Positions 20,357 to 63,320 of a DNA stretch of 63,492 nt are shown here, one piece after another; position 1 is the first letter of the stretch, and each line of letters opens with the position of its first letter. A program made the translations under genes and the position numbers. The DNA comes from Rhodanobacter sp. (GTDB taxonomy: Bacteria > Pseudomonadota > Gammaproteobacteria > Xanthomonadales > Rhodanobacteraceae). The notes under the pieces were generated by a model. That model had not been told where the DNA came from. It ran no database searches and saw only the letters and a program-made list of their open reading frames with translations. The stretch is from assembly GCA_004298045.1 (NCBI GenBank), contig SCRM01000004.1, positions 1-63,492 of the forward strand. The letters are read 5' to 3'.

Positions 20357-20376
20357 CCACGTCCAATCGGACGATG
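20357..20376. promoter_or_regulatory. Steroid-regulon box (copy b), divergent promoter region
   Basis: Minus-strand reading is CATCGTCC-GATT-GGACGTGG. The left half is perfect and the right half keeps GGACG. It lies between the start of the igr-like operon (20297, minus) and the hydratase gene (20409, plus), so it can serve both directions. Confidence 0.7.
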
Positions 20377-20408
20377 TTGCCATCCTCGCCGTTGCCGACC
20401 ATGCGCCC

Positions 20409-21227
20409 ATGCCAAAGACCCCTGCCCGCACGCGAGCGCGTGCCGCAAAAAGCCCCGACCGCGTGGTGCTGGTCGAGCGCCCAGAGGACGGCGTCGCCGT
20501 CGTGCGCCTGCACCGGCCCAAGGCCACCAACGCCCTGAACCTCGCGCTGCAATCGCAACTCGCCGCGGTGTTCGTGGAACTCGCCGCCGACGCCACGGTA
20601 CGCTGCATCGTGCTCACCGGCGGCGGGCAGGTGTTCGCCGCCGGCGGCGACATCAAGGGGCTGGAACAGGCCGGGCCGATCGAAATCATGCAGCGCCACA
20701 CCGAGCGCGTGTGGGCGCCGATCGAGCACTGCCCCAAACCGGTGATCGCCGCGGTCTGCGGCTATGCCTACGGCGGCGGCGCCGAACTGACGATGCACTG
20801 CGACATCATCATCGCCGGCGAAGGCGCGCGCTTTGCGCAGCCGGAAATCCGCATCGGCATCATGCCCGGCATCGGCGGCACCCAGCGCCTGGTGCGCGCG
20901 GTGGGCAAGTTCAACGCCATGCGCATGCTGCTCACCGGCAAGCCGGTCGACGCTGCCGAAGCGCGACTGATGGGACTGGTGAGCATGGTCGTGCCCGACG
21001 CCCAGGTACTGCCGGAGGCACTGGCCATGGCGCACGCCATCGCCGCCATGCCGCCGCTCGCCGCGGAACAGATCAAGGAGGTGGTGCTCGCCGGCATGGA
21101 CGCGTCACTCGGCACCGCGCTGGCGCTCGAACGCAAGGCCAACCAACTCCTGTTCGCCACCGCCGACCAGAAGGAAGGCATGCAGGCATTCATCGAGAAG
21201 CGCAAGCCGAAGTTTCGCGGGCGCTGA
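20409..21227 (+). CDS. Enoyl-CoA hydratase (EchA19-like)
   Basis: A 272-aa crotonase. Both catalytic glutamates of true enoyl-CoA hydratases are present: GYAYGGGAELTMHCDIIIA and FAQPEIRIGIMPGIGGTQRL. The C-terminus KEGMQAFIEKRKPKFRGR is also standard. It would hydrate a trans-2-enoyl-CoA, probably in side-chain beta-oxidation, the role EchA19 has in mycobacteria. It is a single gene divergent from the igr-like operon with its own copy of the regulatory box 32 bases upstream. A Lys/Arg/Ala-rich leader of about 15 residues precedes the conserved domain. Confidence 0.9.
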   Translation: MPKTPARTRARAAKSPDRVVLVERPEDGVAVVRLHRPKATNALNLALQSQLAAVFVELAADATVRCIVLTGGGQVFAAGGDIKGLEQAGPIEIMQRHTERVWAPIEHCPKPVIAAVCGYAYGGGAELTMHCDIIIAGEGARFAQPEIRIGIMPGIGGTQRLVRAVGKFNAMRMLLTGKPVDAAEARLMGLVSMVVPDAQVLPEALAMAHAIAAMPPLAAEQIKEVVLAGMDASLGTALALERKANQLLFATADQKEGMQAFIEKRKPKFRGR

Positions 21228-21253
21228 GAGCGAGCCGCCAGATCCGTGTTGGT

Positions 21254-21272
21254 TCCCGGGCCCGCCCCGGGA
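21254..21272 (+). terminator. Hairpin after the enoyl-CoA hydratase gene
   Basis: A 7-bp perfect stem (TCCCGGG ... CCCGGGA) with a 5-base loop lies 27 bases after the hydratase stop. There is no clear T-run, so termination is inferred from position. Confidence 0.4.
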
Positions 21273-21381
21273 TCGGCACCCTCTCATTGTCCCCCGATTG
21301 CAGGCGCGTACCGACCTGAGCCGGCCCCATCGCCCGATGCATCGCAAGGTCGGCGTCCACGCCGCCATATCCGTTCAATTG

Positions 21382-21401
21382 ACTAGTCCCGTCGGACGAT
21401 G
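21382..21401. promoter_or_regulatory. Steroid-regulon box (copy a) upstream of TonB receptor 1
   Basis: Minus-strand reading is CATCGTCC-GACG-GGACTAGT. It lies 108 bases before the receptor start, almost the same distance as the box before receptor 3. Confidence 0.75.
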
Positions 21402-24021: not shown

Positions 24022-24028
24022 GCCCCGT

Positions 24029-24900: not shown

Positions 24901-24912
24901 GCTGTTCTCCGG

Positions 24913-25424: not shown

Positions 25425-25444
25425 CCGCGTCCGAACGGACGATG
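25425..25444. promoter_or_regulatory. Steroid-regulon box (copy i), divergent promoter region
   Basis: Minus-strand reading is CATCGTCC-GTTC-GGACGCGG. Placed nearly centrally between the SnoaL/hsdA unit (56 bases away) and the OYE-type reductase (54 bases away), so it can control both. Confidence 0.75.
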
Positions 25445-29975: not shown

Positions 29976-29995
29976 CGTCGTCCAAAAGGACGATG
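29976..29995. promoter_or_regulatory. Steroid-regulon box (copy c), divergent promoter region
   Basis: CGTCGTCC-AAAA-GGACGATG, an almost perfect 8-4-8 palindrome. It lies between the aldehyde dehydrogenase (minus) and the MFS transporter (plus, 32 bases downstream). Confidence 0.8.
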
Positions 29996-32220: not shown

Positions 32221-32240
32221 CATCGTCCGAACAGGGTAAG
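32221..32240. promoter_or_regulatory. Steroid-regulon box (copy d) upstream of Rieske oxygenase
   Basis: CATCGTCC-GAAC-AGGGTAAG. The left half is perfect; the right half matches the TAAG variant only partly. It is 70 bases before the oxygenase start and is oriented opposite to the other copies relative to its gene, so it is the weakest member. Confidence 0.6.
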
Positions 32241-32310: not shown

Positions 32311-33414
32311 ATGGCGACGACGAAAGAGTATCGGCTGGGTGAATTCACCTTCCCCCGCGGCTGGTTCATGATTGCCACGGCCGACGACATCAACAGCTAC
32401 AAGCCGCGGCAAATCCGCTTTTTCGCCCATGACTTCGTGCTCTACCGCGGGCGCGAAAGCGGCAAGCCGGTGCTGCTCGACGCCTACTGCTGCCACATGG
32501 GCAACCCGCTCGGCGCGAAAAACACCACCAGCTACGTGGTGCGCGACAACGGCGGCACCAACATCGAAGGCGACTGCATCCGCTGCCCCTACCACGCGTG
32601 GCGGTTCGGCCCGGACGGCAAGTGCAACCAGATCCCCTACAGCAAGGATCCGATTCCCGAGAGCGCGCGCATCAAGGCGTGGCGCGTGGTGGAGTCGATG
32701 GGCGCGATCTGGATCTGGTACGACCCCGAGGGCGGCGCGCCGGAGTGGGACGCGCCGGCGCTCGCGGAGTGGGATGACCCGGCATGGGTCACGCCGAAGT
32801 GGGACAACGTCGGCATGCTCGCCCAGCACCCGCAGGAAGTGGTGGACAACATCTCCGACTACGCCCACCTGGGGCCGATCCACGGCTCCACGGTCGACCG
32901 CTACGAGAACGAGTTCCGCGGTCATCTGGCCATCCAGCGCCAGTGTGGCGGCCATCGCACCCTGGTGGCCGCGGACGGCACGCGTTCGATCCTGCACACC
33001 ATCACCACCTACCATGGCCCCGGCGTGCTGATCTCCGACCTCACCGGCCTGTACGACGCCAAGCTGCTCATCATGCACACGCCGGTGGAAGACGGCAGCA
33101 TCCAGATCTGGCACTCGCTGGTGGTGAAGTCGCCAAGCGGCGCCGCCAAGGCCGGCATCACCGACGCCGTGACCGCCGCGCAATTCCAGGAAACGTCGCT
33201 GCTGTCGTTTGCGCAGGATTTCGAGGCGTGGACAGTCAAGGCGCCCTGCATCAACGGCATGTTCGTGCCCTCGGACGGCCCGTTCATGAAGCAGCGCACC
33301 TGGTACAAGCAGTTCTACAACCCGCGTGCGAAAGAGCGCGATTACCTCGACCGCTGCGAGGGCGTGTACGTGCCCAAGGGCGTGGTGCCCTACAGCGAGG
33401 CGACGGTCGCGTAG
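32311..33414 (+). CDS. kshA: Rieske non-heme iron oxygenase, KshA-like 3-ketosteroid 9-alpha-hydroxylase
   Basis: A 367-aa oxygenase subunit. The Rieske cluster ligands are Cys60 and His62 (YCCHMG) and Cys92 and His95 (CPYHAW). About 13 more residues lie between the two pairs than I expect for classical KshA. The mononuclear iron site is in EVVDNISDYAHLGPIHG (Asn180, Asp183, His186, His191). KshA hydroxylates C9 of 3-ketosteroids and so triggers B-ring opening, which fits the cluster. Because of the insertion, another steroid-directed Rieske enzyme is possible. No reductase (KshB) is in the window. Confidence 0.75.
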   Translation: MATTKEYRLGEFTFPRGWFMIATADDINSYKPRQIRFFAHDFVLYRGRESGKPVLLDAYCCHMGNPLGAKNTTSYVVRDNGGTNIEGDCIRCPYHAWRFGPDGKCNQIPYSKDPIPESARIKAWRVVESMGAIWIWYDPEGGAPEWDAPALAEWDDPAWVTPKWDNVGMLAQHPQEVVDNISDYAHLGPIHGSTVDRYENEFRGHLAIQRQCGGHRTLVAADGTRSILHTITTYHGPGVLISDLTGLYDAKLLIMHTPVEDGSIQIWHSLVVKSPSGAAKAGITDAVTAAQFQETSLLSFAQDFEAWTVKAPCINGMFVPSDGPFMKQRTWYKQFYNPRAKERDYLDRCEGVYVPKGVVPYSEATVA

Positions 33415-34167: not shown

Positions 34168-34232
34168 GTCCAACCTCCTCTCCGACCGGTGCCCGACGTG
34201 CCCACCTGTTCGTCACCCACCGGAGCCTTGCC

Positions 34233-48366: not shown

Positions 48367-48435
48367 GCCCATCGAGTCTAGCGGCACGCACTGGCAATGG
48401 GACATGCCGAAAGGGCCGGGCGATTCATCACCGTT

Positions 48436-49650: not shown

Positions 49651-49660
49651 GGCATGACCT

Positions 49661-50125: not shown

Positions 50126-50127
50126 GC

Positions 50128-50919
50128 TCAGGCCTGCTGCGAGCTGACCGACACCACTTCGCCGGTCATGTAGCTGGAATAGTCGCTGGCGAGGAACACC
50201 ATCACGTTGGCCACCTCCCACGGTTCGGCACCGCGGTGGAACGCCTCCCGCGCGGCGAGCTGATGCAGCAGTTCCTCGCTGGCGGATTTCTTCAGGAACG
50301 CATGGATGGCGAGCGACGGCGCCACCGCGTTCACGCGCACGCCGAACTCGGCGGCTTCCATCGCCGCGCAGCGGGTGAGCGCCATCACGCCGGCCTTCGC
50401 CGCCGCGTAGTGCGCCTGCTCCACCTGCGCGCGCCAGCCGAGCACGGACGCGTTGTTGACGATCACCCCGCCGCCCTGCGCCTGCATCGCCCTGAGCGCC
50501 GCGCGCGTCATGCGGAAGGTGCCGGTGAGGGTGATGTCGATTACCTTGTGCCAGTCCTCGTCGCTCATTTCCACGATGCGCTTGCTGGTGCCCAGACCGG
50601 CGTTGTTGATCAACACATCGACGCTGCCGAGCTTGTCCGCTGCGGCGGCAAACAGCGCATCCACATCGGCCTGCCGGCTCACGTCGCACAGTTGCCCGTG
50701 CACCTGGCTCAGCCCGGTGTCACGCCGGATGGCCTCCACCGCCTCGTGCAGGCGCCGCTCGTGCACGTCGCTGATGAGCAACGCGCGGGCGCCCTCCTCC
50801 GCGGCGCGCTTGGCGGCGGCAAAGCCGATGCCGGCACCGGCGGCCGCGGTGACCAGCACCGACTTGCCCTTGAGCAGGCCATGCGCGGGGACGTAAGCGG
50901 GAGTGTCGTGCAGGTTCAT
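50128..50919 (-). CDS. ipdF: SDR, IpdF-like 5-hydroxy C/D-ring CoA-ester dehydrogenase
   Basis: A 263-aa SDR strongly resembling mycobacterial IpdF (Rv3559c) as I remember it: GHGLLKGKSVLVTAAAGAGI, INNAGLGTSKRIVEM, VIVNNASVLGWRAQ, HYAAAKAGVMALTRC (Tyr-x3-Lys) and AEPWEVAN followed by SDYSSYMTGE. IpdF oxidises the 5-hydroxyl of the HIP-derived CoA ester during C/D-ring degradation; the Comamonas counterpart is ScdG. ATG at 50919, ten bases after the ketosteroid isomerase stop. Confidence 0.9.
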   Translation of the reverse strand: MNLHDTPAYVPAHGLLKGKSVLVTAAAGAGIGFAAAKRAAEEGARALLISDVHERRLHEAVEAIRRDTGLSQVHGQLCDVSRQADVDALFAAAADKLGSVDVLINNAGLGTSKRIVEMSDEDWHKVIDITLTGTFRMTRAALRAMQAQGGGVIVNNASVLGWRAQVEQAHYAAAKAGVMALTRCAAMEAAEFGVRVNAVAPSLAIHAFLKKSASEELLHQLAAREAFHRGAEPWEVANVMVFLASDYSSYMTGEVVSVSSQQA

Positions 50920-50929
50920 GGCGGGGCCT

Positions 50930-51307
50930 TCAAGCGTGCTGGATGTTGGTGGGGCCGAAGTACGCGCGCATGTGCGCAATGCGCCCTTCGCCATCGAAAT
51001 CGAAAACGTCGATCGGGTGGATGGTGAGCGGCTGGCCGCCATCCACCAGGCGCACGCGGAAGGCAAACGCGACGGAACGCGCCGCGGCACGCACGTCACT
51101 TTCCAACGCGACGTCGAGTCGCATGGCGCAACTGGCGCGATAGAACTCGCGAATTGCCACGCGCCCGCGCCGCGGCAGGGTACCGACGGGGTCTTCGACC
51201 ACGGCATCCTCGGCGTACAGCGCGACGACCGCATCGGCATTGCCGGCGTTCAGCGCACGCACGTAGGCATGCACCGTATCGATCATCGCCTGCGTCGTTG
51301 CGGTCAT
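50930..51307 (-). CDS. ksi: Steroid Delta-5-isomerase (ketosteroid isomerase)
   Basis: A 125-aa NTF2-fold protein matching Comamonas and Pseudomonas ketosteroid isomerases in length and motifs: VHAYVRALNAGN (Tyr15), VVEDPVGTLPRRG (Asp39), IREFY, and HPIDVFDFDGEG (Asp100), with C-terminal MRAYFGPTNI. The three catalytic residues align with Tyr14, Asp38 and Asp99 of the C. testosteroni enzyme. It shifts the double bond of 5-ene-3-oxosteroids to the conjugated 4-ene form. The start overlaps the upstream dehydrogenase stop (ATGA). Confidence 0.93.
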   Translation of the reverse strand: MTATTQAMIDTVHAYVRALNAGNADAVVALYAEDAVVEDPVGTLPRRGRVAIREFYRASCAMRLDVALESDVRAAARSVAFAFRVRLVDGGQPLTIHPIDVFDFDGEGRIAHMRAYFGPTNIQHA

Positions 51308-52488
51308 GGCCCCTTGCGCTCCTCGCGCGGCATGCCGAGCGCGCGCTCGGCAATCAAGTTCAACTGGATCTCGTTGGTGCCGGCGTAGATCGTGTCCGCC
51401 CGGCTGGAGAGCCAAACCTGCTGCAGGCGCGTGCGCGCCGCATCGTCCGCTCGGACCACGTCGCCGGCGCGGCCCAGCACGTCGGCGGCAAGCTGGCCAA
51501 GATCGCGGCGCCAGTTGGACCAGGCGTACTTGGCGGTGTACGCGGCATGCGAGGCGCCACCGGCACCCAGCACGCGCAGCGCGTGGAAGCGCAGCGTGGC
51601 GAGCCTGAGCGCCGCGTCGGCAATGCGCTGGCGCAGCACCGGGTCCTGCGCGGCGCCGTTGGCCCTGGCCGCGGCGATCACCAGATCCAGCTCGTGCCGA
51701 AACTGCGCCTGCTGGCCGAGGGTGGAAACCCCGCGCTCGTAGCCGAGCAGCGCCATCGCCACCTTCCAGCCCTCGCCCACCGGGCCCAGGTGCAGGCTGC
51801 CCTCGGTGCGCGCGCCGTCGAAAAACACCTCGTTGAACTCGGCGCCGCCGGTCATCTGCCGGATCGGCCGCACCGTCACCCCCGGCTGGTGCAGCGGCAC
51901 CAGCAGGAGACTCAGGCCGTGGTGGCGCTGCGAGCCTTCCTCGGTGCGTGCCAGCACAAAGATCCAGTCGGCCTCCTGCGCCCAACTGGTCCATACCTTC
52001 TGCCCGTCGATCACCCACTCGCCGCGTTCCACGTCGAGCCGCGCGCGGGTGCGCACGTTGGCCAGGTCGGAGCCGGCATTGGGCTCGGAATACCCCTGCG
52101 CCCAGTACTCGCGGCCGGCACGGATGCCGGGCAGGAAACGCGCCTGCTGCGCGGGCGTGCCGAAGTCGATCAGCGTGGGCGCGAACAATTGCTCGCCGAT
52201 GTGGCCGAGCCGGCCAGGGCCGCCTGCGCGGACGTATTCCTCGTGAAAAATGATCTGCTTGCCCAGCGGCAAGCCGGCACCGCCGGCGGCCTGCGGCCAG
52301 CCGATGCCGACCCAGCCGGCAGTGGCCAGCTCCTGCTCCCAACGTTTGGCCAGCGCGGCGTCGAAGCGTTCCTCGCCGGGACCGTGGCAGCCGCGCAGTG
52401 CGGCGAACTCGCCCGTGAGGTGCGCCGCCATCCACGCCTGCACTTCGGCGCGGAACGTGCGTTCTTCAGGAGTCTCGGTGAGGTTCAT
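51304..52488 (-). CDS. Acyl-CoA dehydrogenase, alpha-type
   Basis: A 394-aa acyl-CoA dehydrogenase (GIGWPQAAGGAGLPLGK; AQGYSEPNAGSDLANVRTRA; GQKVWTSWAQEADWIF; IYAGTNEIQLNLIAERALG). The Glu of the usual YEGTxEIQ is Ala. It pairs with the shorter gene at 52485, overlapping by four bases. The pair probably acts in side-chain or C/D-ring beta-oxidation; I cannot decide which FadE pair it equals. Confidence 0.87.
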   Translation of the reverse strand: MNLTETPEERTFRAEVQAWMAAHLTGEFAALRGCHGPGEERFDAALAKRWEQELATAGWVGIGWPQAAGGAGLPLGKQIIFHEEYVRAGGPGRLGHIGEQLFAPTLIDFGTPAQQARFLPGIRAGREYWAQGYSEPNAGSDLANVRTRARLDVERGEWVIDGQKVWTSWAQEADWIFVLARTEEGSQRHHGLSLLLVPLHQPGVTVRPIRQMTGGAEFNEVFFDGARTEGSLHLGPVGEGWKVAMALLGYERGVSTLGQQAQFRHELDLVIAAARANGAAQDPVLRQRIADAALRLATLRFHALRVLGAGGASHAAYTAKYAWSNWRRDLGQLAADVLGRAGDVVRADDAARTRLQQVWLSSRADTIYAGTNEIQLNLIAERALGMPREERKGP

Positions 52489-53579
52489 GGCGCGGCATCC
52501 AGCAGTTGCGCCGCGACCCGCTCGCGCCATGTGGAAGGATCGCCGCCGCGCACGCGATTGGCCTGCGCTCGCTTGAAATAACGCTGCACGTCCACCTCCC
52601 ACGTGTAGCCGACGCCGCCGTGCAACTGGATGGCTTCCTGCGCGGCGTAGCGCACCGCGTCGCACGCCGCGCACCATGCTTCCGCAGCGTGGAACGACAG
52701 CGTCGTCGCCTCCGGCGCGGCATCGGCCACCGCGGCCGCGCCGTACACCGCCGAGCGCGCGGATTCGATCGCCACCAGCATCTGCGCGCAGCGATGCTTC
52801 ACCGCCTGGAAACTCGCGATCGGCCGCCCAAATTGCATGCGCTGCGCGGCGTAGGCCAGCGTGAGATCCAGGCATTGCTGGGCAACGCCAACTTGCTCGG
52901 CCGCCAGCGCGATGGCGGCAAGACCGCGCGCATGCACCAGCGCCGTGCGCAGCGCGGCACCTTCAGCCAGCAGGGCCGTGGCCGGCACATGCACGGCGTG
53001 CGCGTGCACGCTGGCGCTGCGCCGCGTGGTGTCGATCATGGCAAGGGGTTCGACGGCAAGCTCCGGCGCCGGCACCCAGAAGAGGCGCGGCGACTCGCCC
53101 TCGATCAGCAACAGGAAGTTGTCCGCCCACGCGGCGCCGGGCACCTGCGGCCACGTGCCGTCGAGGCGCCAGTCGCCCGCAGGCGTGGTGCTGGCGTCGG
53201 CATGGGTCGCGTGTGCTGCCAGCACCAGCACGGCGCCGGAGGCCACGCCGGCCAACAACGCCGGCTCCGGGTTGCCGCATGCGCGCAGCAGCGCGGCGGC
53301 TTCGATCGCGCTCTCGAAAAACGGCACGCCGGCCAGATGCCGGCCAAGCTGCTCGGCCAGCAGCGCCAGCCCGACCTCGCCCAAGCCCAGCCCGCCCTCG
53401 GCTTCGGGCGCGGCCACCGCACACCAGCCCTGTTCGACGATGCCCTGCCACAGCGCGCGATCCATGCCGTCGGCGCTGTCCGCGGCAGCGCGCATGGCTG
53501 GCGCGGCGCACGCCTCGGCGAGGAAATCCGCGGCGGCTTGCGCAATCGCCTGCTGGTCGTCGTCCAGCGCGAGATCCAT
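52485..53579 (-). CDS. Acyl-CoA dehydrogenase, beta-type
   Basis: A 364-aa acyl-CoA dehydrogenase-fold subunit (MDLALDDDQQAIAQAAADFL; RMQFGRPIASFQAVKHRCAQ; HGGVGYTWEVDVQRYFKRAQ). It lacks the SEPNAGSD loop of its neighbour and probably forms a heteromer with it. It follows the SDR at 53581 by one base, and its own stop overlaps the alpha-type start. Confidence 0.86.
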   Translation of the reverse strand: MDLALDDDQQAIAQAAADFLAEACAAPAMRAAADSADGMDRALWQGIVEQGWCAVAAPEAEGGLGLGEVGLALLAEQLGRHLAGVPFFESAIEAAALLRACGNPEPALLAGVASGAVLVLAAHATHADASTTPAGDWRLDGTWPQVPGAAWADNFLLLIEGESPRLFWVPAPELAVEPLAMIDTTRRSASVHAHAVHVPATALLAEGAALRTALVHARGLAAIALAAEQVGVAQQCLDLTLAYAAQRMQFGRPIASFQAVKHRCAQMLVAIESARSAVYGAAAVADAAPEATTLSFHAAEAWCAACDAVRYAAQEAIQLHGGVGYTWEVDVQRYFKRAQANRVRGGDPSTWRERVAAQLLDAAP

Positions 53580-53580
53580 G

Positions 53581-54456
53581 TCAGGTGCCCCACACCTTTT
53601 GCGCGGGCACTGCTTCGGCCAGCAACTTCTCGACTATCGGGCCCAGCTCGGCCGGCACCCAGCGCATGCCCTTGTCATTGATCTTGCCGGTGCGCCAGCC
53701 GTCGGCCACCGACAGCTCGCCGCCCTTGGCCTCGAAGCAGCGCCCCGTGACGTGCGCGGACTGCACGCTACCCAGCCACACCACGATGCTGGCGACGTTG
53801 CGCGGGTCCCAGACGTCGAAACCGTGCGCGGGCTTTTTCACCAGCTCCGGCATCGCGCCTTCGGTCATGGATGTGCGCGCGGCGGGCGCGAGGCAATTGG
53901 CGGTGATGCCGTAGCGTGCCAGCTCGGCGGCCTGCACCAGGGTGAGCGCGGCAATGCCGCCCTTGGCGGCGGAATAATTGCTCTGCCCGACCGAACCCTG
54001 CAGGCCGGCGCCGGAGGTGGTGTTGATGATGCGCGCATCCACCACCGCACCGGCCTTCTTCTGTGCGCGCCAGTGGTTACCGAGCACGTTGGCAAGGCAG
54101 AAATGCCCGCGCAGGTGCACGCGCATCACGGTGTCCCAATCCTCCTCGGTGAGCGACAGGAACATGTGGTCGCGCAGCACACCGGCGTTGTTCACCAGCA
54201 CCTGCACGTCGCCGAACGCGGCAATGGCCGCCGCCACGATAGCGTGCGCACCGGCGAGGCTGGTGATGTCGCCATCGTTCGCCAGCGCCTTGCCGCCGGC
54301 GGCGACGATTTCGGCCACCACGGCCTCCGCGGCCTGGCGACGGATGTCGTTGACGACCACGTTCGCGCCCTCGGCAGCGAAGGTCTGCGCATAGGCGCGG
54401 CCCAAGCCGCCGCCAGCGCCGGTGATGATGACGGTGCGTCCGTCGCAAATGCCCAT
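53581..54456 (-). CDS. SDR, Rv3548c/Hsd4-type (3-hydroxyacyl-CoA or 17-beta-hydroxysteroid dehydrogenase)
   Basis: A 291-aa SDR of the 17-beta-HSD type 4-like group: VIITGAGGGLGRAYAQTFAA, VLVNNAGVLRDHMFLSLTEE, INTTSGAGLQGSVGQSNYSA (Ser and Tyr with AAKGG) and a long C-terminal extension (HVTGRCFEAKGGELSVADGW). It resembles Rv3548c of the mycobacterial KstR2 regulon. A role as 3-hydroxyacyl-CoA dehydrogenase next to FadA6 is most likely; a 17-beta-hydroxysteroid dehydrogenase is the alternative. Confidence 0.85.
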   Translation of the reverse strand: MGICDGRTVIITGAGGGLGRAYAQTFAAEGANVVVNDIRRQAAEAVVAEIVAAGGKALANDGDITSLAGAHAIVAAAIAAFGDVQVLVNNAGVLRDHMFLSLTEEDWDTVMRVHLRGHFCLANVLGNHWRAQKKAGAVVDARIINTTSGAGLQGSVGQSNYSAAKGGIAALTLVQAAELARYGITANCLAPAARTSMTEGAMPELVKKPAHGFDVWDPRNVASIVVWLGSVQSAHVTGRCFEAKGGELSVADGWRTGKINDKGMRWVPAELGPIVEKLLAEAVPAQKVWGT

Positions 54457-54466
54457 GGGCCTCTCC

Positions 54467-55618
<1,152 letters not shown>

Positions 55619-55680
55619 GGTGATTGCTCGGGATTCGGGATACAGGTTGGAAATACCGGGGGCGGTTCTTTCGCGCGGGC

Positions 55681-56754
55681 CTATGCGAACGTCGTGCCGG
55701 GGCCGATCGACGGCAAGGTTTCGGCGTCCAGCAAGGCGGCACCGAGGCGGGCGCGGTGGAACGCGCGGTCACCCCACGCGGCATCGAGCACCCACGCCCG
55801 TTTCATGAACATCTGCAGGTCCACCTCCCACGTGTAGCCCATCGCACCGTGCACCTGGATCGCCTTGCGCGCGGCCGTCCACGCGGCGGCGGCGCAGGCG
55901 AGCTTGGCGTGCGAGGCGCGCACGCTGGCATCGGGCTCGCCGGCGGCAAGTGCGGCGGCGGCGCGGTAGAGCACCGGGCGTGCAAATTCAATCTCGGTCA
56001 CCACGTCGGCCAGGTGGTGCTTGATCGCCTGGAAGCTGCCGATCGGTTTGCCGAACTGCTTGCGCTGCGCGGCGTAATCGGTGGCCAGATCGAGCATGCG
56101 CTGCGCGAGACCGATCGCCTGGCCGCCGACGTTGAGTGCGGCGCGGTCGAGCGTGGCGGCCCACTGCGGCGCTCCGGCAACGCCATCGAGCACGCGGGTT
56201 TCCGTGTCCGGATGCCAGCGCACCTCGAACAGGCGCCGCGAGGCATCGATGCTGGGCAGCACGGTCAGCTCCACCTTGGCGCGCGGCACCGCGTGCAGCT
56301 CGCAGCCGTCGGCCACCGGGTGCGCCATCAGCAGCAGATCGGCGAGGTGCGCGTCGGCCACCCACGGATTCACCGGGTGGCCGATGGCGATGCGGCAACT
56401 GCCGTCGACCACGCGCGGCAGCCATTGCGCGCGCAGCGCGTGGCCCGCAGGCAAGCCCGCCAGCAGGCCGGGTGCAAGGTAGGCGGTATCGGCCAGCGAA
56501 TCGGGGATGGCGTAATAACCCAACTCCTGCGTCATCAACGCCCAGTCGATGTCGCCCATGCCCAGCCCGCCTTCGGCCTCGGGCACGGAGAGCGCGGTGA
56601 GCCCCTGCTCGGCGATCTTCTTGCGCAATGCCGCTGAGCGCCCGGCGCCGGTTTCCCACACTTCGCGCAACTGCTCGGGCGCCGCCTCGGTCATGAAGAA
56701 GCGGCTGACGGCGTCGCGGAACGCGATCTGGTCTTCGGTGAAGGTGAAGTCCAT
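55681..56754 (-). CDS. Acyl-CoA dehydrogenase, beta-type (ScdC-like)
   Basis: A 357-aa acyl-CoA dehydrogenase-fold subunit (MDFTFTEDQIAFRDAVSRFF; RKQFGKPIGSFQAIKHHLAD; VHGAMGYTWEVDLQMFMKRA). Ten bases behind the alpha-type gene. With that partner it probably equals Comamonas ScdC1-ScdC2 or the FadE30 step that dehydrogenates the HIP-CoA-derived intermediate. ATG at 56754; the frame extends upstream to 56853 without a good ribosome site. Confidence 0.86.
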   Translation of the reverse strand: MDFTFTEDQIAFRDAVSRFFMTEAAPEQLREVWETGAGRSAALRKKIAEQGLTALSVPEAEGGLGMGDIDWALMTQELGYYAIPDSLADTAYLAPGLLAGLPAGHALRAQWLPRVVDGSCRIAIGHPVNPWVADAHLADLLLMAHPVADGCELHAVPRAKVELTVLPSIDASRRLFEVRWHPDTETRVLDGVAGAPQWAATLDRAALNVGGQAIGLAQRMLDLATDYAAQRKQFGKPIGSFQAIKHHLADVVTEIEFARPVLYRAAAALAAGEPDASVRASHAKLACAAAAWTAARKAIQVHGAMGYTWEVDLQMFMKRAWVLDAAWGDRAFHRARLGAALLDAETLPSIGPGTTFA

Positions 56755-56764
56755 GGCCGCTCCC

Positions 56765-57919
56765 TCAGTTCTTCGGCAAGCCGAGCATGCGTTCGGCAAT
56801 GATGTTGCGCTGGATCTCGTTGCTGCCCGCGTAGATCGGGCCGGCCTGCGCAAACAGGAAACCTTCCAGCCACTCGTGCACTTCGGGGTCGTCGATCAGC
56901 TCGGCGCGCGCGCCGAGCAGGTGCATCGCGGTCTCGTGCATGTCCAGGTCCAGCTCGGACCAGAAAATCTTGTTGGTGCTGGATTCCGCACCGATCTTTG
57001 CGCCGTGCTGCAGCCGCGCGACGGTGTGGTAGGAAGAAAGTGTGTACGCCTCGGCGCCCATCCACGCGCGCAGCACGGCGTCGCGCAGCGTGCCGTCGTG
57101 CGCGGCCTCGCCGCGGTGGCGGCGATACAGCTCCACCAGCCGCTTTGCGGTGCGCTGGTAGCGCGCCGGCGAGCGCAGCAACAGGCCGCGCTCGAAACCC
57201 GCGGTGGCCATCGCCACGTGCCAGCCCTGGCCTTCCTCGCCGACGCGGTTCTCCACCGACACGTGCACGTCCTTGAAGAACACTTCGGCAAAGGCGAACT
57301 TGCCGTTCAGCGCCTTGATCGGGCGCACGGTGATGCCTTCGGCGTCCAGCGGCACCAGCAGGTACGACAGGCCATGGTGGCGGCTGGATTCCGGGTCCGA
57401 ACGGAACAGCCCGAACATCCAGTTGGCGAACAGCGCGCGGGTGGACCAGGTCTTCTGGCCGTTCAGCACGTAATGGTCGCCGTCGCGGATCGCGCGCGAG
57501 GTGATCGAAGCCATGTCCGAACCCGCGTTGGGCTCGCTCCAGCCCTGCGCCCACATGTCGTCGCAGCGCGCGGTACGTGGCAGGAAACGCGCTTTCTGTT
57601 CCGCAGTGCCGAACTCCATCAGCGTGGGCGCAAGCAGCAGGAGGCCATTCTGGTTGACGCGCAGCGGCGCATCGGCGGCCCAGTACTCCTCCTCGAACAC
57701 CAGCCAGTCGATCAGGCCGGCGCCGCGGCCGCCGAGCTCCTTCGGCCAGGTGATGGCGCTGTAGCCGTGTTCGGCCAGCTCGGCCTCCCACGCGCGGTGC
57801 TGCTCGAAACCTTCGCGGGTGTCGTAGCTTTGCAGCGGCGTGCGCGGTGCGTGTGCGGCAAGCCACGCGCGCACCTCGGCGCGGAACGCCTGCTGCTCGG
57901 GGGTGTAGGTGAGATCCAT
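56765..57919 (-). CDS. Acyl-CoA dehydrogenase, alpha-type (FadE30/ScdC-like)
   Basis: A 384-aa FAD acyl-CoA dehydrogenase: ITWPKELGGRGAGLIDW, AQGWSEPNAGSDMASITSRA, NGQKTWSTRALFANWMFGLF and IYAGSNEIQRNIIAERMLGL. Length and motifs match FadE30. Position between EchA20 and FadA6, with its partner immediately downstream, fits dehydrogenation in C/D-ring degradation. ATG at 57919, nine bases after the echA20 stop. Confidence 0.88.
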   Translation of the reverse strand: MDLTYTPEQQAFRAEVRAWLAAHAPRTPLQSYDTREGFEQHRAWEAELAEHGYSAITWPKELGGRGAGLIDWLVFEEEYWAADAPLRVNQNGLLLLAPTLMEFGTAEQKARFLPRTARCDDMWAQGWSEPNAGSDMASITSRAIRDGDHYVLNGQKTWSTRALFANWMFGLFRSDPESSRHHGLSYLLVPLDAEGITVRPIKALNGKFAFAEVFFKDVHVSVENRVGEEGQGWHVAMATAGFERGLLLRSPARYQRTAKRLVELYRRHRGEAAHDGTLRDAVLRAWMGAEAYTLSSYHTVARLQHGAKIGAESSTNKIFWSELDLDMHETAMHLLGARAELIDDPEVHEWLEGFLFAQAGPIYAGSNEIQRNIIAERMLGLPKN

Positions 57920-57928
57920 GGATGATCC

Positions 57929-58684
57929 TCAGAATTTCGCGTCGCGCTTGGCGACGAACGCGCTGCGGCTTTCGGCCGAATCCGGGCTCATGTACGCCTG
58001 CAGCGTGAAGCCCTGCTCCCAACGGTATTTGGCTTCCAGGTCGCCGTCCTCGACGCCGGTCAAGGCTTCCTTCGCAATGCGGATCATCGCCGGGCTCTTG
58101 GCCGCGATCTTGCGCGCGATGCCCAGCGCGGTTTCGCGCAGGTCGGCGCGCGGCACCACGCGCTCGATCGCGCCCAGGCGCAGCGCCTCGGCGGCGCCGA
58201 TCATTTCGCCGGTGAAGAACAGGTAGCGCGTCTTCTGCACGCCGAACATGCGTTGCAGGTGCGCCGCGCCGCCCATTGCGCCGCGGTCCACCTCGGGCAG
58301 GCCGAAGCGCGCATCCTCGGCGGCGACCACGATGTCGGCCGCGCCGCAGATGCCGATGCCGCCACCGAGCACGAAGCCGTGCACTGCCGCGATCACCGGT
58401 ACCGGGTTCAGATGCACCGCCTTGAACGTGGCGTAATTGCCGGCGTTGACGCTGACGATCAGGCCCTGGTCGGCGGCCAGCTCCTTGATGTCCACGCCCG
58501 CGCAAAAACCCTTGCCCTCCGCGCGGATCACGATCACGCGCACCTCGGGTTGTTCGCCAAGCGCGGCGATGGTCGTTGCCAGTGCATGCCAGCCGGCATT
58601 GTTCAAGGCATTCACCGGCGGGCAGTCGAGCACCAGCTCGGCGACGCCGTCAGGATGAATCTCGGTGGTGAACGGCTCAGCCAT
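57929..58684 (-). CDS. echA20: Crotonase-family ring-cleavage hydrolase EchA20
   Basis: A 251-aa crotonase closely matching EchA20/ScdN as I remember it: VIVIRAEGKGFCAGVDIKEL, HGFVLGGGIGICGAADIVVA, ARFGLPEVDRGAMGGAAHLQ and the C-terminal YRWEQGFTLQAYM. EchA20 hydrolytically opens ring D of the bicyclic HIEC-CoA intermediate, after which IpdAB opens ring C. It overlaps ipdC by eight bases. The N-terminal ELVLDCPPVNALNNAGWHAL is also characteristic of this subgroup. Confidence 0.92.
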   Translation of the reverse strand: MAEPFTTEIHPDGVAELVLDCPPVNALNNAGWHALATTIAALGEQPEVRVIVIRAEGKGFCAGVDIKELAADQGLIVSVNAGNYATFKAVHLNPVPVIAAVHGFVLGGGIGICGAADIVVAAEDARFGLPEVDRGAMGGAAHLQRMFGVQKTRYLFFTGEMIGAAEALRLGAIERVVPRADLRETALGIARKIAAKSPAMIRIAKEALTGVEDGDLEAKYRWEQGFTLQAYMSPDSAESRSAFVAKRDAKF

Positions 58685-59762
58685 GGCTCTCTCCTCGCGC
58701 AAGTTCGCCCAGCACCTGCAGCCGCTCGGTTGCCACGCGGACGATGCCGGCAATCACTTCCTCGCAGGAATCCAGACGCCCGATCAACGCGGCGACCTGG
58801 CCGGAGGCCATCACGCCCTCGTCCGGGTGGCCGGCCAGCATCGAGCGCTGCAGGAGCATCGGTGCATTGGCCGCCATCACCGTCTGCGCCAGGCCCCCCG
58901 CGTCGTCGCCGCGCATGCCCTGCCAGAGTATCTTCAGCGCGTGGCCGCTGGTCATGCCGGTCTGCGCCTTCCAACCCAGCGCGAGTTTCAGCGCGATGCG
59001 CAGGCGCTTGAATGGCGAGGCCTTCTGCAGCATCGCCAGGTATTCGTTGGGGATCATCCGCTGCGGCATGCCGTCGACCACGCGCGAGATGGCGATCTTT
59101 GCCGCATCGTTGGTGGCGACATAGCGCGCCAGGGTGGCCTCGGGCACGCCGGAATCGCTGGTCATCAGGAACCGCGTGCCCATCGCGATGCCCTGCGCGC
59201 CGTAGGCCAGCGCCGCAACCAGGCCGCGCCCGTCGTAGAAACCGCCGGCCGCGACCACCGGCACCTCCACCGCGTCCACCACCTGCGGCAGCAGCACCGT
59301 GGTCGGCACGCTGCCGGTGTGGCCGCCGCCCTCGCCACCCTGCACGGTGACCACGTTGGCGCCCAGCTCGATGGCCTTTTGCGCATGCTTGAGCGCGCCG
59401 ACCGTGGGCATGCACACGATGCCGGCGTCGCGCAGGCGGCGAATGGTCTTCGCATCCGGCCCGCGCCCGTAGCTCACCGCGCGGATGCCGTGCTTTACCG
59501 CGAGGTCGAGCAGCTGCTGCGCGTTGGGCTGGAACATGTGGAAATTGAGCCCGAACGGCTTGTCGCTGGTGAGCTCCTTCACCTTGAGGATTTCCGCCTC
59601 GACGCGCTCGGCGGGGATCGTCACTCCGGCAAGAAAACCGAAGCCGCCAGCGTTGCAGGTGGCGGCCACCAGTGAGGCGCCGGCGACGTAGCCCATCGCG
59701 GTCTGCACCACCGGGTAGCGGCAGCCGAGCAGATCGCACAGTGGCGTGTGCAGCGCGCTCAC
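58677..59762 (-). CDS. ipdC: IpdC, flavin-dependent C/D-ring CoA-ester reductase (nitronate-monooxygenase family)
   Basis: A 361-aa FMN TIM-barrel protein of the nitronate monooxygenase/2NPD family: PVVQTAMGYVAGASLVAATC, VVTVQGGEGGGHTGSVPTTV, VVAAGGFYDGRGLVAALAYG and AMGTRFLMTSDSGVP. Adjacent to ipdA, ipdB and echA20, it is IpdC/ScdK, which acts on the 5-oxo HIC-CoA intermediate to generate the double bond. The start is GTG at 59762, overlapping the upstream crotonase stop (GTGA). Confidence 0.92.
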   Translation of the reverse strand: MSALHTPLCDLLGCRYPVVQTAMGYVAGASLVAATCNAGGFGFLAGVTIPAERVEAEILKVKELTSDKPFGLNFHMFQPNAQQLLDLAVKHGIRAVSYGRGPDAKTIRRLRDAGIVCMPTVGALKHAQKAIELGANVVTVQGGEGGGHTGSVPTTVLLPQVVDAVEVPVVAAGGFYDGRGLVAALAYGAQGIAMGTRFLMTSDSGVPEATLARYVATNDAAKIAISRVVDGMPQRMIPNEYLAMLQKASPFKRLRIALKLALGWKAQTGMTSGHALKILWQGMRGDDAGGLAQTVMAANAPMLLQRSMLAGHPDEGVMASGQVAALIGRLDSCEEVIAGIVRVATERLQVLGELARGESHG

Positions 59763-60667
59763 GGGGCGTCCTTCTTGTTGGCGCGGATCATCGACGCGGC
59801 ATCTTGTCCGCCCAGCTCGCCGGCGCCCAGCACCTGGCTGTGCGCGTGCGCGAAGTGGTGGTAGCCAAACGCCAGATCCATCGCGCTGCGCAGGCCCTGC
59901 ATCTCCTCGATGCGGTTGACGACGGTCTTGGCGAGCGATAGCCCCATGCGCGGCTGGCTGGCGATCTTCGCCGCGATGGCGTGCACCGTGGATTCCAGCG
60001 CGGCGCGCGGCACCACGCGGTTGACCATGCCGATCTCGTGCGCGCGCTGCGCGCTCATGCGCTCGCCGAGGAACAGGAACTCCTTCGCCAGGCGCGGGTT
60101 CATCTCGTGCACATGGGCGAAATACTCCACGCCGGGGATGCCCATGCGCAGCACCGGGTCCTGAAAAAACGCGTCGTCGCTGGCCACGATCAAATCGCAC
60201 ACCCAGGCCAGCATCAGCCCGCCGGCGATACAGGCGCCGTGCACCATCGCGATGGTCGGCTTGGGCAGGTCGTGCCAGCGCCGGCACATGCCCAGGTACA
60301 CCTCCTGCTCGCGCACGTAGAGGCGCTCGGCGCCGGGCTTGTTGACGTGGTCCCACCAGAGCGAGGCGCGCGGATAGGAGTGGTCCAGGTCGCGCCCCGG
60401 CGTGCCGATGTCGTGGCCGGCGGAAAAATGCTTGCCCCCGCCGCGCAGCACGATCACCTTCACCGCGTCGTCGTCCACCGCGCGGCGCAGCGCGGCGTCG
60501 AGCGCATACGTCATCTGCGAATTCTGCGCGTTGTGGTACTTGGGGCGGTTGAGCGTGACGGTGGCGACGCGGTCGGCCACCGCGTACAGCACCGGCTCGT
60601 CCGTCTCGTAGACGGAATGGTCGGGGCGTCCGACGAAGGCGTCGCCGGGATCGGTCGTATCGGCCAT
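59759..60667 (-). CDS. Crotonase-family protein lacking hydratase glutamates
   Basis: A 302-aa crotonase (VATVTLNRPKYHNAQNSQMT; HFSAGHDIG; ACIAGGLMLAWVCDLIVASD; FFQDPVLRMGIPGVEYFAHV). At the two positions where true enoyl-CoA hydratases carry Glu it has non-acidic residues (GGLML and DPVLR), so simple hydration is unlikely. Conserved placement between ipdB and ipdC ties it to C/D-ring breakdown. It could be an isomerase or hydrolase, or handle a side product. ATG at 60667 overlaps neither neighbour; one base separates it from the ipdB stop. Confidence 0.85.
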   Translation of the reverse strand: MADTTDPGDAFVGRPDHSVYETDEPVLYAVADRVATVTLNRPKYHNAQNSQMTYALDAALRRAVDDDAVKVIVLRGGGKHFSAGHDIGTPGRDLDHSYPRASLWWDHVNKPGAERLYVREQEVYLGMCRRWHDLPKPTIAMVHGACIAGGLMLAWVCDLIVASDDAFFQDPVLRMGIPGVEYFAHVHEMNPRLAKEFLFLGERMSAQRAHEIGMVNRVVPRAALESTVHAIAAKIASQPRMGLSLAKTVVNRIEEMQGLRSAMDLAFGYHHFAHAHSQVLGAGELGGQDAASMIRANKKDAP

Positions 60668-60668
60668 C

Positions 60669-61439
60669 TCAGGCCCCCAGCGCGTGCGCACGCAGGTTGT
60701 GCGGGTCGAAGCGCGCAATCAGCGCAAGCTGCGCGGCAGTCGGCTGCGGCGTGGTCGGCACCGCATCCGGAATCTGCAGCGGGAAGCCGGTGGCTTCCTG
60801 TACCGCCTGCGGCGTCACGCCGGGGTGCACCGCCACCAGTCGCACCTGATGCCCAGGCCCGCTGAAATCCAGCACCGCGAGGTTGGTGTAGACGCGGCGG
60901 ATGTCGACCACGTCCTCGTAGTTCCAGCCGCGCGGGAAGCGATCCGGCTTGTAGCCCACCGAGGCCACCATGTCGACCTCGCCGGCCACGAACACGCGCG
61001 GGTTGTGGTGCGGCACGAAGAACGAATTGGCGTGGCTGATGGAGTTGCCGGGAAATCCGCGCACGCCGAGCATCATCACCTTCGGCCGGGCGTAGTCGGC
61101 ACCGATCATCGAGATGTTGGCCTGGCCCCAGCGATCGACCTGGGTGGGGCCAACCATCGCGTGGCGCTTGCCGCTCCACACGTTGTCGAAGATGCGCGCA
61201 AAACCCATCGCGCTCTCGCGCTTCACGCGGTAGTCGCCGCGCGGGCCGATGGGTACCGGCTCGCGCACGATGAAGGCCTCGGAGTCGGTCATCATCAGGT
61301 CGGGGTTGAGCGTGGCCATGCACAGCGAGGCCGCTAGGCGCGGCACCACGCCGATGCCGGTGGCCAGCACTTCGCCGTCGTCCTTCCAGGCTTCGGCGGC
61401 GGCGCAGATGATGCGGTCGATAAGGGTTGCATCCGTCAT
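60669..61439 (-). CDS. ipdB: IpdB, beta subunit of steroid C-ring-opening CoA-ester hydrolase
   Basis: A 256-aa protein of the CoA-transferase beta-subunit family: TGIGVVPRLAASLCMATLNP, AMGFARIFDNVWSGKRHAMV, GPTQVDRWGQANISMIG and RGFPGNSISHANSFFVPHHN. IpdAB uses a CoA-transferase fold to hydrolyse the carbon-carbon bond of COCHEA-CoA and open ring C; the Comamonas counterpart is ScdL2. It follows ipdA by ten bases. Confidence 0.92.
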   Translation of the reverse strand: MTDATLIDRIICAAAEAWKDDGEVLATGIGVVPRLAASLCMATLNPDLMMTDSEAFIVREPVPIGPRGDYRVKRESAMGFARIFDNVWSGKRHAMVGPTQVDRWGQANISMIGADYARPKVMMLGVRGFPGNSISHANSFFVPHHNPRVFVAGEVDMVASVGYKPDRFPRGWNYEDVVDIRRVYTNLAVLDFSGPGHQVRLVAVHPGVTPQAVQEATGFPLQIPDAVPTTPQPTAAQLALIARFDPHNLRAHALGA

Positions 61440-61449
61440 CGCGATCTCC

Positions 61450-62328
61450 TCAAAACACCGGCGGAGCAAGCTGGCGGATCGCCGCCTCGCCGCCGACGCG
61501 CGCGAGGTATTCCGCCTCGCCGCAGGCCACGTAGCGCTCGACATAGCGCTGCCAGCCGTCGGCATCCTTCGCGCTGGCCGCGTACTCCTTGAAGTGCGCC
61601 ACGTCGAAGCCGTACAGCGGCGCGCACGAGCTGGGGTGCGCGCCGCACGGCAAGTGCACCACGCCGGTGGTTTCGCTGCGCTCCCAGGGCACGTAACGCG
61701 CCTCGTCCCCGGCCTCGAACACGCTGCCGTCCACCAGCTCGTCGCAGCTTGCATACGTGGCCTTCGCCGCGCGCACGAAGAGGTCGTCCATGTACAGGTC
61801 CGGCCCCTTCACCTGGCACACGCCGCGCGCGTCGGCGCGGTCCACGTGCACCAGCGCCACGTCGAGCGGCAATGCCGGCATCGCCAGCCACTGCTTGTCG
61901 TCGTAGGGCGAATCCACCAGCTTGAGCGACGGGTTGACCTTGGGCACGTCGGTGCCCAGGCCCACCCGCGTCGGGATGAACGGCAGGCCCCATCCGGCAG
62001 CCTTGAGGCCGAGCAGGAACAGGCCCTCGTCCACTTCCATCGTCTCCACTGCGCCGTGCTGGCGCGCGAGGCGGAAGTACGGTTCGAGCGGGATGAAATC
62101 CAGCGAGACGAAGGCAAACACTACCTTGCGCACCTTGCCGGCCGCGCACAGCATGCCCACGTCCGCGCCGCCGTAGGCGACGATGGTGAGGTCCTTCAGC
62201 GGGCTGCGCAGGATCTCGCGCACCAGCGCCATCGGCTTGCGCCGCGGGCCCCAGCCGCCGATGCCGATGGTCATGCCGTCGTGCAGTTGCGCCACGACGT
62301 CGGCCGCGCCCATGCGTTTGTCGGCCAT
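61450..62328 (-). CDS. ipdA: IpdA, alpha subunit of steroid C-ring-opening CoA-ester hydrolase
   Basis: A 292-aa CoA-transferase alpha-subunit homologue: MTIGIGGWGPRRKPMALVRE, TIVAYGGADVGMLCAAGKVR, YFRLARQHGAVETMEVDEGL and PTRVGLGTDVPKVNP. The combination with an adjacent beta subunit, ipdC and echA20 is diagnostic of IpdA/ScdL1. The ATG at 62328 is one base from the dioxygenase stop; a longer frame to 62352 exists but overlaps that gene. Confidence 0.92.
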   Translation of the reverse strand: MADKRMGAADVVAQLHDGMTIGIGGWGPRRKPMALVREILRSPLKDLTIVAYGGADVGMLCAAGKVRKVVFAFVSLDFIPLEPYFRLARQHGAVETMEVDEGLFLLGLKAAGWGLPFIPTRVGLGTDVPKVNPSLKLVDSPYDDKQWLAMPALPLDVALVHVDRADARGVCQVKGPDLYMDDLFVRAAKATYASCDELVDGSVFEAGDEARYVPWERSETTGVVHLPCGAHPSSCAPLYGFDVAHFKEYAASAKDADGWQRYVERYVACGEAEYLARVGGEAAIRQLAPPVF

Positions 62329-62329
62329 C

Positions 62330-63232
62330 TCAACCCGCCTTTTTGTGCGCAATGGTGAAATCGTGGCCCCACAGGCTCACGCGGGTGAACTCGTGCACCA
62401 CGTGGCGCTTCCAATCCACCACCGCGCCGCCGTAGCCGTACTCGATGTCGAAGCCGGACGGGCAGCGCATGTAGAACGAGGTCATGCGGTCGTTGGTGTG
62501 CTGGCCAAGCGTGGCGCTGAGCGTCACCTCGTGCGCCAGCATGCGATCCATTGCGCGGCCGACCTCGGCCATGTCGCGCACCTCGACCATCGCGTGCACG
62601 CAACCCGACGGCACCGGGAACGCCGCCAGCGCCAGGCTGTGATGGCGCGCGTTGCCGCAGTGGAAAAAGTGGATCGGCAGCACCACGCCCTCGGTGCCCG
62701 GCGGCTGGAAATTGAAGATGTCGGAAAGCCCGAAGCCCATCACCTCGCGCGCAAACGCGGCGGTTTCGGCAAAGTTCGGCGCCGGCAGTACCACGTGCCC
62801 CATGCCGATCTCGCCGGTGACAAACCCCGGCACGCCCACCGGCGACACGAAGCGGGTGAAATCCGACTGGAACCCCCACACCACCTCGTGCCGGTTGCCG
62901 GAGGGATCGGTGAAACTCGCTACCTGCTGCACCCGACGCTGCGCACAGAACGCGGCGTCCTCCAGCTTGAAGGCCACCTTCGCCGCGCGCAGCGTTTCCA
63001 GCGCCTGCTCGAACGTCGGCTGGTTGATCACCTCCCAGCCCGACGCCGCGTAGCGGTCAGCCTCGCCCGGCTCGATCAGGAAGCGGAACTGGCGCTCGTC
63101 CATCCGCACGTACAGGCCGCCGCCCGGCGCCGGGGCGGTCTGCATGCCCAGCACCTGTTCGGCGTAGGTTTTCCAGCGCGCGACGTCGGTCGTCTGCGCC
63201 ACCACATAGGCGAGCCCGCTGAGCTTCATCAT
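62330..63232 (-). CDS. tesB: Extradiol ring-cleavage dioxygenase, TesB/HsaC type
   Basis: A 300-aa two-domain VOC (BphC-type) dioxygenase. The second domain holds the iron ligands: His in IGMGHVVLP (about 146), His in NARHHSLAL (about 198) and Glu in GFDIEYGYGG (about 264). TesB/HsaC performs meta-cleavage of the catecholic A ring of 3,4-DHSA. It is the first gene of the operon, with a regulon box 68 bases upstream. Of the clustered ATGs I prefer 63232, which has GGGAG nine bases upstream; the one at 63241 would be too close to it. Confidence 0.9.
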   Translation of the reverse strand: MMKLSGLAYVVAQTTDVARWKTYAEQVLGMQTAPAPGGGLYVRMDERQFRFLIEPGEADRYAASGWEVINQPTFEQALETLRAAKVAFKLEDAAFCAQRRVQQVASFTDPSGNRHEVVWGFQSDFTRFVSPVGVPGFVTGEIGMGHVVLPAPNFAETAAFAREVMGFGLSDIFNFQPPGTEGVVLPIHFFHCGNARHHSLALAAFPVPSGCVHAMVEVRDMAEVGRAMDRMLAHEVTLSATLGQHTNDRMTSFYMRCPSGFDIEYGYGGAVVDWKRHVVHEFTRVSLWGHDFTIAHKKAG

Positions 63233-63300
63233 GGCCTGCATCTCCCGGGCAAACCGCCCTTTCGCGATGGCCTGATTCTGCGGATGCTGCCGTGCACCAG

Positions 63301-63320
63301 CATCGTCCGATGAGACTAAC
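63301..63320. promoter_or_regulatory. Steroid-regulon box (copy h) upstream of tesB operon
   Basis: CATCGTCC-GATG-AGACTAAC. Same orientation towards its gene as at the TonB receptors. It is the only candidate promoter element before the 16-gene tesB-fadA5 operon. Confidence 0.8.

Follow-up and report, generated by a model that had tools for sequence, protein, structure and literature searches.

The locus studied here raises the question of which regulator recognizes the 20-bp palindrome that recurs in front of its transcription units, and how transcription could be activated from it. The DNA analyzed is a 63,492-nucleotide stretch of Rhodanobacter sp. (assembly GCA_004298045.1, contig SCRM01000004.1, positions 1 to 63,492 of the forward strand), hereafter the window. 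Pfam scans identified it as a steroid locus, the families found being KshA, an OYE-like flavoenzyme, ChsH2-like and HsaC-like proteins, acyl-CoA dehydrogenases and three TonB receptors. A first-pass annotation had listed nine copies of the palindrome (the box) and proposed that they define a steroid regulon bound by a LuxR-type protein. The observation was confirmed, the interpretation is supported by the sequence comparisons reported below, and four elements were added, i.e., a fixed -10 element, an internal tenth site, boxes on a second contig and the identity of the regulator. We consider it highly probable that the box serves as the operator for TesR/TeiR, a dimer of which would bind it and activate transcription from there in a class II-like, steroid-responsive manner. 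What can be read from the DNA itself comprises the box with its conservation and its targets, the fixed -10 element and the linkage to TesR.

The nine 20-mers are all present, at 20357, 21382, 25425, 29976, 32221, 39686, 39910, 47120 and 63301. With up to three mismatches, the pattern CATCGTCC-N4-GGACGATG matches the window 7 times versus 0.53 expected, and none of 100 shuffles reached 7. Likewise, GTCC-N4-GGACGAT was observed 8 times on either strand, versus a first-order Markov mean of 0.03 and a maximum of 1 over 100. The left half of the box had been described as almost invariant, which did not hold, the + strand reading CCACGTCC at 20357, ACTAGTCC at 21382 and CCGCGTCC at 25425. The near-invariant part is instead one half, GGACGATG/T, mostly located on the side of the regulated gene, the other half being often CTTAGTC-like. 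In boxes 32221, 39686 and 63301, just one of the two halves agrees closely with the consensus. The intergenic location claimed for all nine copies holds after correction of start codons, box 20357 lying between an ECH gene (probable start 20409) and a divergent SDR gene. A tenth site, absent from the earlier list, was found at 51441 (CATCGTCCGCTCGGACCACG) within an acyl-CoA dehydrogenase gene.

The LuxR-type gene noted at 47173-48366 is present, its extent being corrected to 47173-48405 (- strand). It encodes a protein of 410 aa with a PAS domain, a GerE helix-turn-helix (HTH) and a weakly GAF-like N-terminal half. At E<=0.001, GerE, HTH_30 and PAS were the only Pfam domains detected, with neither a kinase domain nor an autoinducer-binding domain. 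The gene is the last of a putative operon (47173-63241, - strand) that starts with an HsaC/TesB-like gene and ends with a thiolase gene followed by the regulator. This is the arrangement of the tesB-to-tesR cluster named in PMC13101464 (here and below, the literature is represented by excerpts of the cited papers). Given this gene order and a homology extending over both the sensor part and the HTH, we take the window protein to be TesR/TeiR. The AlphaFold model, of moderate quality (mean pLDDT 68), gave no clear sensor assignment, its best fold matches being weak ones to GAF/PAS photosensor cores (TM ~0.3).

No ortholog of the regulator was found in 14 genomes of the same genus, the protein with the best E-value there being 26% identical, and two close relatives (59 and 52% identity) are encoded by Comamonas testosteroni NFYY023. 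Across 84,980 species, a scan that detects only relatives sharing certain short peptides returned 37 regulator loci, mostly from Comamonadaceae and including C. testosteroni ATCC 11996 and NFYY023. Identity to the window protein was 51-68% in 36 of them, the 37th being a 153-residue match at 76%, and the main TesR copy of four C. testosteroni strains was 58-61% identical. The HTH is the most conserved part of TesR, with a mean column conservation of 0.95 over residues 361-400 in 35 sequences (34 of the 37 loci plus the window). In the regulator tree, the window protein groups with Sphaerotilaceae on a long branch (support 84/81), which, like the lack of orthologs in the genus, bears on a possible horizontal acquisition. 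Five Comamonas loci (L156, L158, L159, L160 and L162) carry a second TesR-like gene with an upstream box. Besides, a metagenome-assembled genome titled Singulisphaera (Planctomycetota; L151) encodes a TesR nearly identical to that of the Comamonadaceae locus L163, probably on a contaminating contig.

Upstream regions of orthologous clusters were then compared, a check suggested by the first-pass annotation. Five-base inverted dyads with gaps of 0-14 were counted in 33 TesR loci (the 37 less 4 redundant ones), the window genome being left out. Among the 5442 dyads seen, the top one was TCGTC-N6-GACGA, with 33 intergenic and 7 coding occurrences in 26 loci (p=6e-20), followed by ATCGT-N8-ACGAT (26 intergenic, 4 coding). 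The top de novo dyad is the palindrome of the window. Another scan, with a matrix built from the nine window sites, covered 32 loci as well as 160 kb of C. testosteroni and a second contig of the window genome (C2). At a score of at least 16, it gave 72 intergenic matches (3 on C2) and 6 coding ones, and 40 column-shuffled matrices gave on average 0.17 (maximum 1) intergenic and 1.55 (maximum 15) coding matches. Gene calls came from a simple in-house caller, so coding labels near starts are approximate; in the GC-rich window, where the codon-trained version produced antisense frames, a version trained on the first gene set was used instead, and the codon-trained calls for C. testosteroni were retained. 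Boxes stand before the same genes as in the window, i.e., before SDR50128 in 17 of 19 unit heads, kshA, ALDH and MFS in 7 of 8 each, thiolase18214 in 5 of 6 and SDR27713 in 3 of 4, and the divergent HsaA-like/HsaB-like pair is also repeatedly boxed. Plasmid-borne TesR relatives with 39-41% identity (Vibrio alfacsensis, Burkholderia arboris and Cupriavidus necator) are accompanied by box-like sites, identified by sequence in the latter two records, which lack gene annotation. Several of these sites show the -10 motif A-N3-T at offset 21 described below. The Vibrio plasmid, pVa1 (L172), carries acyl-CoA dehydrogenases, an OB-fold (ChsH2-like) protein, the 41% TesR relative and boxes, which gives the appearance of steroid catabolism. 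In 56 small loci encoding distant TesR-like proteins, many of them partial HTH matches, no box plus -10 was found at up to two mismatches, and the operator may therefore not extend to those proteins.

Promoters were aligned on the box, sites being picked by box score and directions being defined by a neighboring gene with a window or C2 ortholog at 15-240 bp; the -10 element played no part in site choice. In 83% of the 76 promoter directions outside the window genome, an A-N3-T hexamer starts 21 bases after the box, versus a mean of 3.8% and a maximum of 9.2% at other offsets. The more specific AnnAT occurs at offset 21 in 67% of them versus 0.8%. The window genome offers 17 directions, one of which faces an unverified open reading frame (ORF) at a contig end; A-N3-T stands exactly at this offset in 59% of them and within 1 bp of it in 82%. 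Within the window itself, the element is found within 1 bp in 12 of 13 gene-facing directions versus none of the 7 opposite ones, two of which aim at a gene with a nearer box and one at the unverified ORF. Boxes 20357, 25425 and 29976 have a -10-like element on both sides. The -10 consensus is weak, about cACaAT, and its spacing places the center of the box near -42.5. This position, which is deduced from the -10 offset and refers to predicted starts, is that of class II operators of the lux-box type, and the dyad of ~20 bp agrees with the earlier remark that the 8-4-8 layout fits the length of LuxR-family operators. The start codons at 20409 (ATG), 20324 (GTG) and 30028 (ATG) coincide exactly with the predicted +1 at a distance of 33 bases from the box, a spacing seen for the called starts of 7 of 94 promoter directions. 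The ECH, SDR and MFS messages are thus possibly leaderless.

The proposed regulon extends beyond the window. On contig C2, the first 20 kb contain four additional boxes, each of them intergenic, with window-matrix scores of 27.1, 25.4, 22.7 and 13.8, and the next 10 kb contain none. The four head steroid operons with KstD-like, HsaA/HsaB-like, KshB-like, HsaD/E/F/G-like and FadD-like genes, these names being assigned by domain content and gene order. A strict pattern, TNRTCYNNNYRGACGATK, has 11 exact matches in the genome, 7 in the window (two of them being both strands of 39910) and 4 on C2, versus 0-2 in each of 14 genomes of the same genus and 0-3 in each of 30 relatives; since it was designed after some C2 matches were known, this count is not fully independent. 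Combining the box with the -10 element at up to one mismatch gave 8 matches genome-wide (3.26 Mb), none of them outside the two steroid contigs and 51441 being one of them. The loose palindrome ATCGTC-N6-GACGAT with one mismatch showed no genome-wide excess (31 matches here versus 14-37 in the 14 same-genus genomes). The argument therefore depends on where the boxes lie, on the longer motif and on the -10 element. Two further candidates were rejected: C3:230362, upstream of another TonB receptor, with a -10 on neither side, and C5:2367, a poor box between PrpD and TerC with a -10-like TAAAAT toward PrpD and none toward TerC.

In C. testosteroni, TesR is reported to be required for the TA441 operons tesB-tesR, tesA1-tesG and tesA2-ORF18 (PMC6895838). 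This is matched in strain NFYY023 by boxed promoters before the tesB ortholog and before a divergent HsaB-like/HsaA-like pair, which we infer to be tesA1/tesA2. The 6 exact matches of the composite on the NFYY023 chromosome all lie at 2.756-2.861 Mb, around tesR. With one mismatch there are 13. The cluster accounts for another 5 of these, 4 precede DUF1329 genes at other places and 1 precedes the second TesR-like gene; 1 lies near an alkyl-sulfatase-like gene and has no clear target, and 2 are presumed to be due to chance, one of which was examined. Composite boxes precede 5 of the 6 NFYY023 DUF1329 genes, four of them outside the steroid cluster (loci L175-L178, L181 and L183-L187). No box was found near the sixth gene or at the single DUF1329 copy of the window genome. 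Growth on monoterpenes requires AmeB, which is a DUF1329 protein (PMC6394551). The boxed DUF1329 genes may be linked to steroid uptake. Two palindromic boxes before an alkyl-sulfatase-like gene of C. testosteroni (L179:2356-2375 and 2546-2565) lack a clear -10.

In the proposed mechanism, whose steps of binding, activation, ligand and feedback we infer, a TesR dimer would bind the palindrome CATCGTCC-N4-GGACGATG through its C-terminal LuxR/GerE HTH. The box would cover the -35 region with its center near -42.5, the weak -10 beginning 21 bases beyond it, and bound TesR would act on RNA polymerase in the class II manner described for the lux box. The trigger may be a steroid or a steroid metabolite, the GAF/PAS-like N-terminal half being its probable sensor. 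The symmetry of the box would allow a single copy between divergent genes to drive both. Through 63301 and the internal site 51441, TesR would also activate the operon that encodes it, resulting in positive feedback.

The regulon proposed by the first-pass annotation is supported by the TesR gene order, the de novo palindrome, the conserved targets and the scarcity of sites near kshA in two TesR-negative genomes. These came from 369 genomes of the class, five of which encode KshA at E<=1e-40. Besides the window genome and NFYY023, these are three in which no TesR was found at 1e-10. Two of the three were scanned (G056 and G282), G200 (KshA 34%) being left out. In G056, whose KshA is 60% identical, no site scoring at least 13 was found in 55 kb around its three KshA copies. 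The proposal that the LuxR-type protein is the binder likewise draws support from TesR orthology and from the linkage of box and TesR in other genomes.

Several observations weigh against this interpretation. The TesR-negative control is small, and 14 kb of G282 (KshA 46%; genome 84% complete) yielded one site, scoring 13.3 with the window matrix and 17.1 with an 85-site matrix. The loci used for the dyad, the matrix and the targets were selected for encoding TesR, so that the linkage to TesR rests on the TesR-negative control, on relatives without the regulator and on HTH conservation. Several loci are from related strains and their counts are not independent, and at a score of at least 10 the coding matches (61) do not exceed the shuffled level (64). 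Among unit heads, many of those of the tesB-tesR operon are rarely or never boxed (thiolase48436 0/10, ACAD52485 0/10, SDR53581 1/12 and tesR 3/23), as would be expected if these genes are internal. GMC35410 is boxed in 1 of 7. Of the 170 heads that lack a window ortholog, 22 also reach a score of 13 or more. In the window, the promoter of TonB receptor 1 lacks a -10 at the expected offset, box 39686 and its gene are separated by more than 200 bp, and the kshA box is inverted with one weak half. Lastly, reviews describe TeiR as a membrane-associated, pole-localized, steroid-sensing kinase (PMC6678751, PMC8399759).

This description would suit the alternative that survives best, itself improbable, in which another regulator traveling with the cluster (CRP/FNR, TetR or another dimer) binds the box and TesR acts upstream as a signaling protein or kinase. 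A center near -42 would also suit a CRP-type activator, and the single site near kshA in G282, which has no TesR match, points the same way. Against it, the box tracks TesR, being present in TesR loci, box-like in the three plasmid loci with 39-41% TesR and absent from the 55 kb around the G056 KshA copies. The HTH is the part of TesR that is most conserved, its Pfam domains include no kinase, and its best fold matches, weak as they are, are to photosensor cores. In addition, no second regulator turned up among the Pfam-scanned ORFs of the window, a scan that covered part of them. It is very unlikely that the box binds a repressor whose release would bring about induction. Palindromes of this kind exist for steroid repressors, such as that of EdcR, which overlaps the -10 (PMC8700777), whereas the present box lies wholly upstream of the -10 at constant spacing and TesR is reported as a positive regulator (PMC6895838, PMC13101464). 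An attenuator or terminator hairpin, which an 8-4-8 palindrome could form, can practically be dismissed, since the -10 lies beyond the box, leaving the box upstream of the predicted start and outside the transcript, and since the box serves both directions at 20357, 25425 and 29976.

Under the TesR operator model, the boxes can be assigned as follows. Box 1 (20357-20376) would act in both directions, on ECH (+, start ~20409) and on SDR 19509-20324 (-), which is followed by side-chain genes; its -10-like elements, both at offset 21, are GACCAT (20397-20402, +) and TAGTCT (20331-20336, -). The same divergent ECH/SDR19509 pair is boxed in C. testosteroni, in locus L164 and on Vibrio pVa1. Box 2 (21382-21401, +) precedes TonB receptor 1 without A-N3-T at offsets 20-22. 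The distances of 108-110 bases given earlier for receptors 1 and 3 were recovered, with 108 to ATG 21510 for the former and, for the latter, 110 to the second ATG and 104 to the first. Box 3 (25425-25444) lies between the divergent OYE-like flavoenzyme (+, 25499; CACAAT, offset 20) and SnoaL-SDR (-; CATGAT, offset 21) genes, and box 4 (29976-29995) between MFS-SDR (+, 30028) and ALDH-SDR (-), with A-N3-T on both sides. Box 5 (32221-32240, +; -10 CACGAT), with its degenerate right half, precedes kshA (32311-33414, +), the 3-ketosteroid 9alpha-hydroxylase oxygenase gene (KshA_C, E=4e-56); the kshA box is inverted in six of the seven cases listed from other loci. Box 6 (39686-39705, -; CACCCT, offset 22) is assigned to TonB receptor 2. 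Box 7 (39910-39929, +; TAGAGT, offset 20), a perfect palindrome, precedes MFS 40055-DAO-GMC, and box 8 (47120-47139, -; CAGGCT, offset 21) TonB receptor 3 (44731 to ~47009). Box 9 (63301-63320, -; CAGAAT, offset 21) heads the tesB/hsaC-like-to-tesR operon (63241 down to 47173), the first gene of which is also boxed in its C. testosteroni ortholog.

The tenth box (51441-51460, -; CAGGTT, offset 21) lies in the 3' part of the acyl-CoA dehydrogenase gene 51304-52488 and fits the composite with 1 mismatch. It may be an internal promoter of SnoaL-SDR-MaoC-thiolase-tesR, in keeping with the box that stands before 17 of 19 SDR50128 unit heads in other TesR loci. In a transcriptome (PMC10637631; columns taken without headings), the LuxR gene, thiolase, dehydratase and fabG have values in one column and the next acyl-CoA dehydrogenase in all four, which is consistent with a separate promoter at the C. 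testosteroni box, whose window counterpart is 51441. As for the surrounding genes, an EthD-domain gene (33475-34173, -) and a secretory-lipase-like gene (34311-35489, +) belong to the cluster, and neither has its own box. A phage-type integrase gene (3680-4759, -) near the left end of the window could mark a mobile element beside the steroid cluster; no tRNA was found in the window.

We lean, by a modest margin over even odds, toward a portable regulon, in which a near-frozen TesR HTH and the box/-10 module would have spread together across orders and plasmids (Comamonadaceae, Sphaerotilaceae, the lineage of the window and a Vibrio plasmid). The module would have captured different outer-membrane uptake genes in each lineage, TonB receptors here and dispersed DUF1329 genes in Comamonas, with TesR as a direct steroid-responsive activator rather than a kinase. 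No TesR/TeiR operator was found in excerpts from the open PMC library (PMC6895838, PMC8700777, PMC12239570, PMC6678751, PMC8399759, PMC3591248, PMC13101464, PMC12502768), and an earlier report in the original TeiR papers is possible. A defined operator with fixed promoter geometry makes binding testable by one gel shift and lets the kinase model be set against direct activation. With the box/-10 model, regulon members can be predicted in TesR genomes, dispersed uptake genes among them, and the box promoters are candidate steroid-responsive promoters for biosensors.

Compared with known systems, the regulon resembles those of KstR and KstR2, TetR-family regulators of steroid catabolism in actinobacteria. 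The latter, compared here by description only, differ in being repressors released by CoA thioesters (PMC8700777, PMC6678751). The EdcR operator of Caenibius tardaugens is likewise a palindrome common to steroid-degradation promoters, but EdcR is a TetR-type repressor whose operator, TnnCnnTACnAnTnGTAnnGnnA, overlaps the -10, and the present box differs from it in both sequence and position (PMC8700777). With the lux box and LuxR in class II, the box shares a 20-bp dyad centered at -42.5 (PMC3376562, PMC7585371), the sequence being different and TesR lacking an autoinducer-binding domain in Pfam. The likeness to TesR/TeiR of C. testosteroni extends to the HTH, to the regulator as last gene of a tesB-to-tesR operon and to boxes before TesR-requiring operons. 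The window genome, which belongs to another order of the class, adds TonB receptors to these targets, whereas NFYY023 instead boxes five of its six DUF1329 genes.

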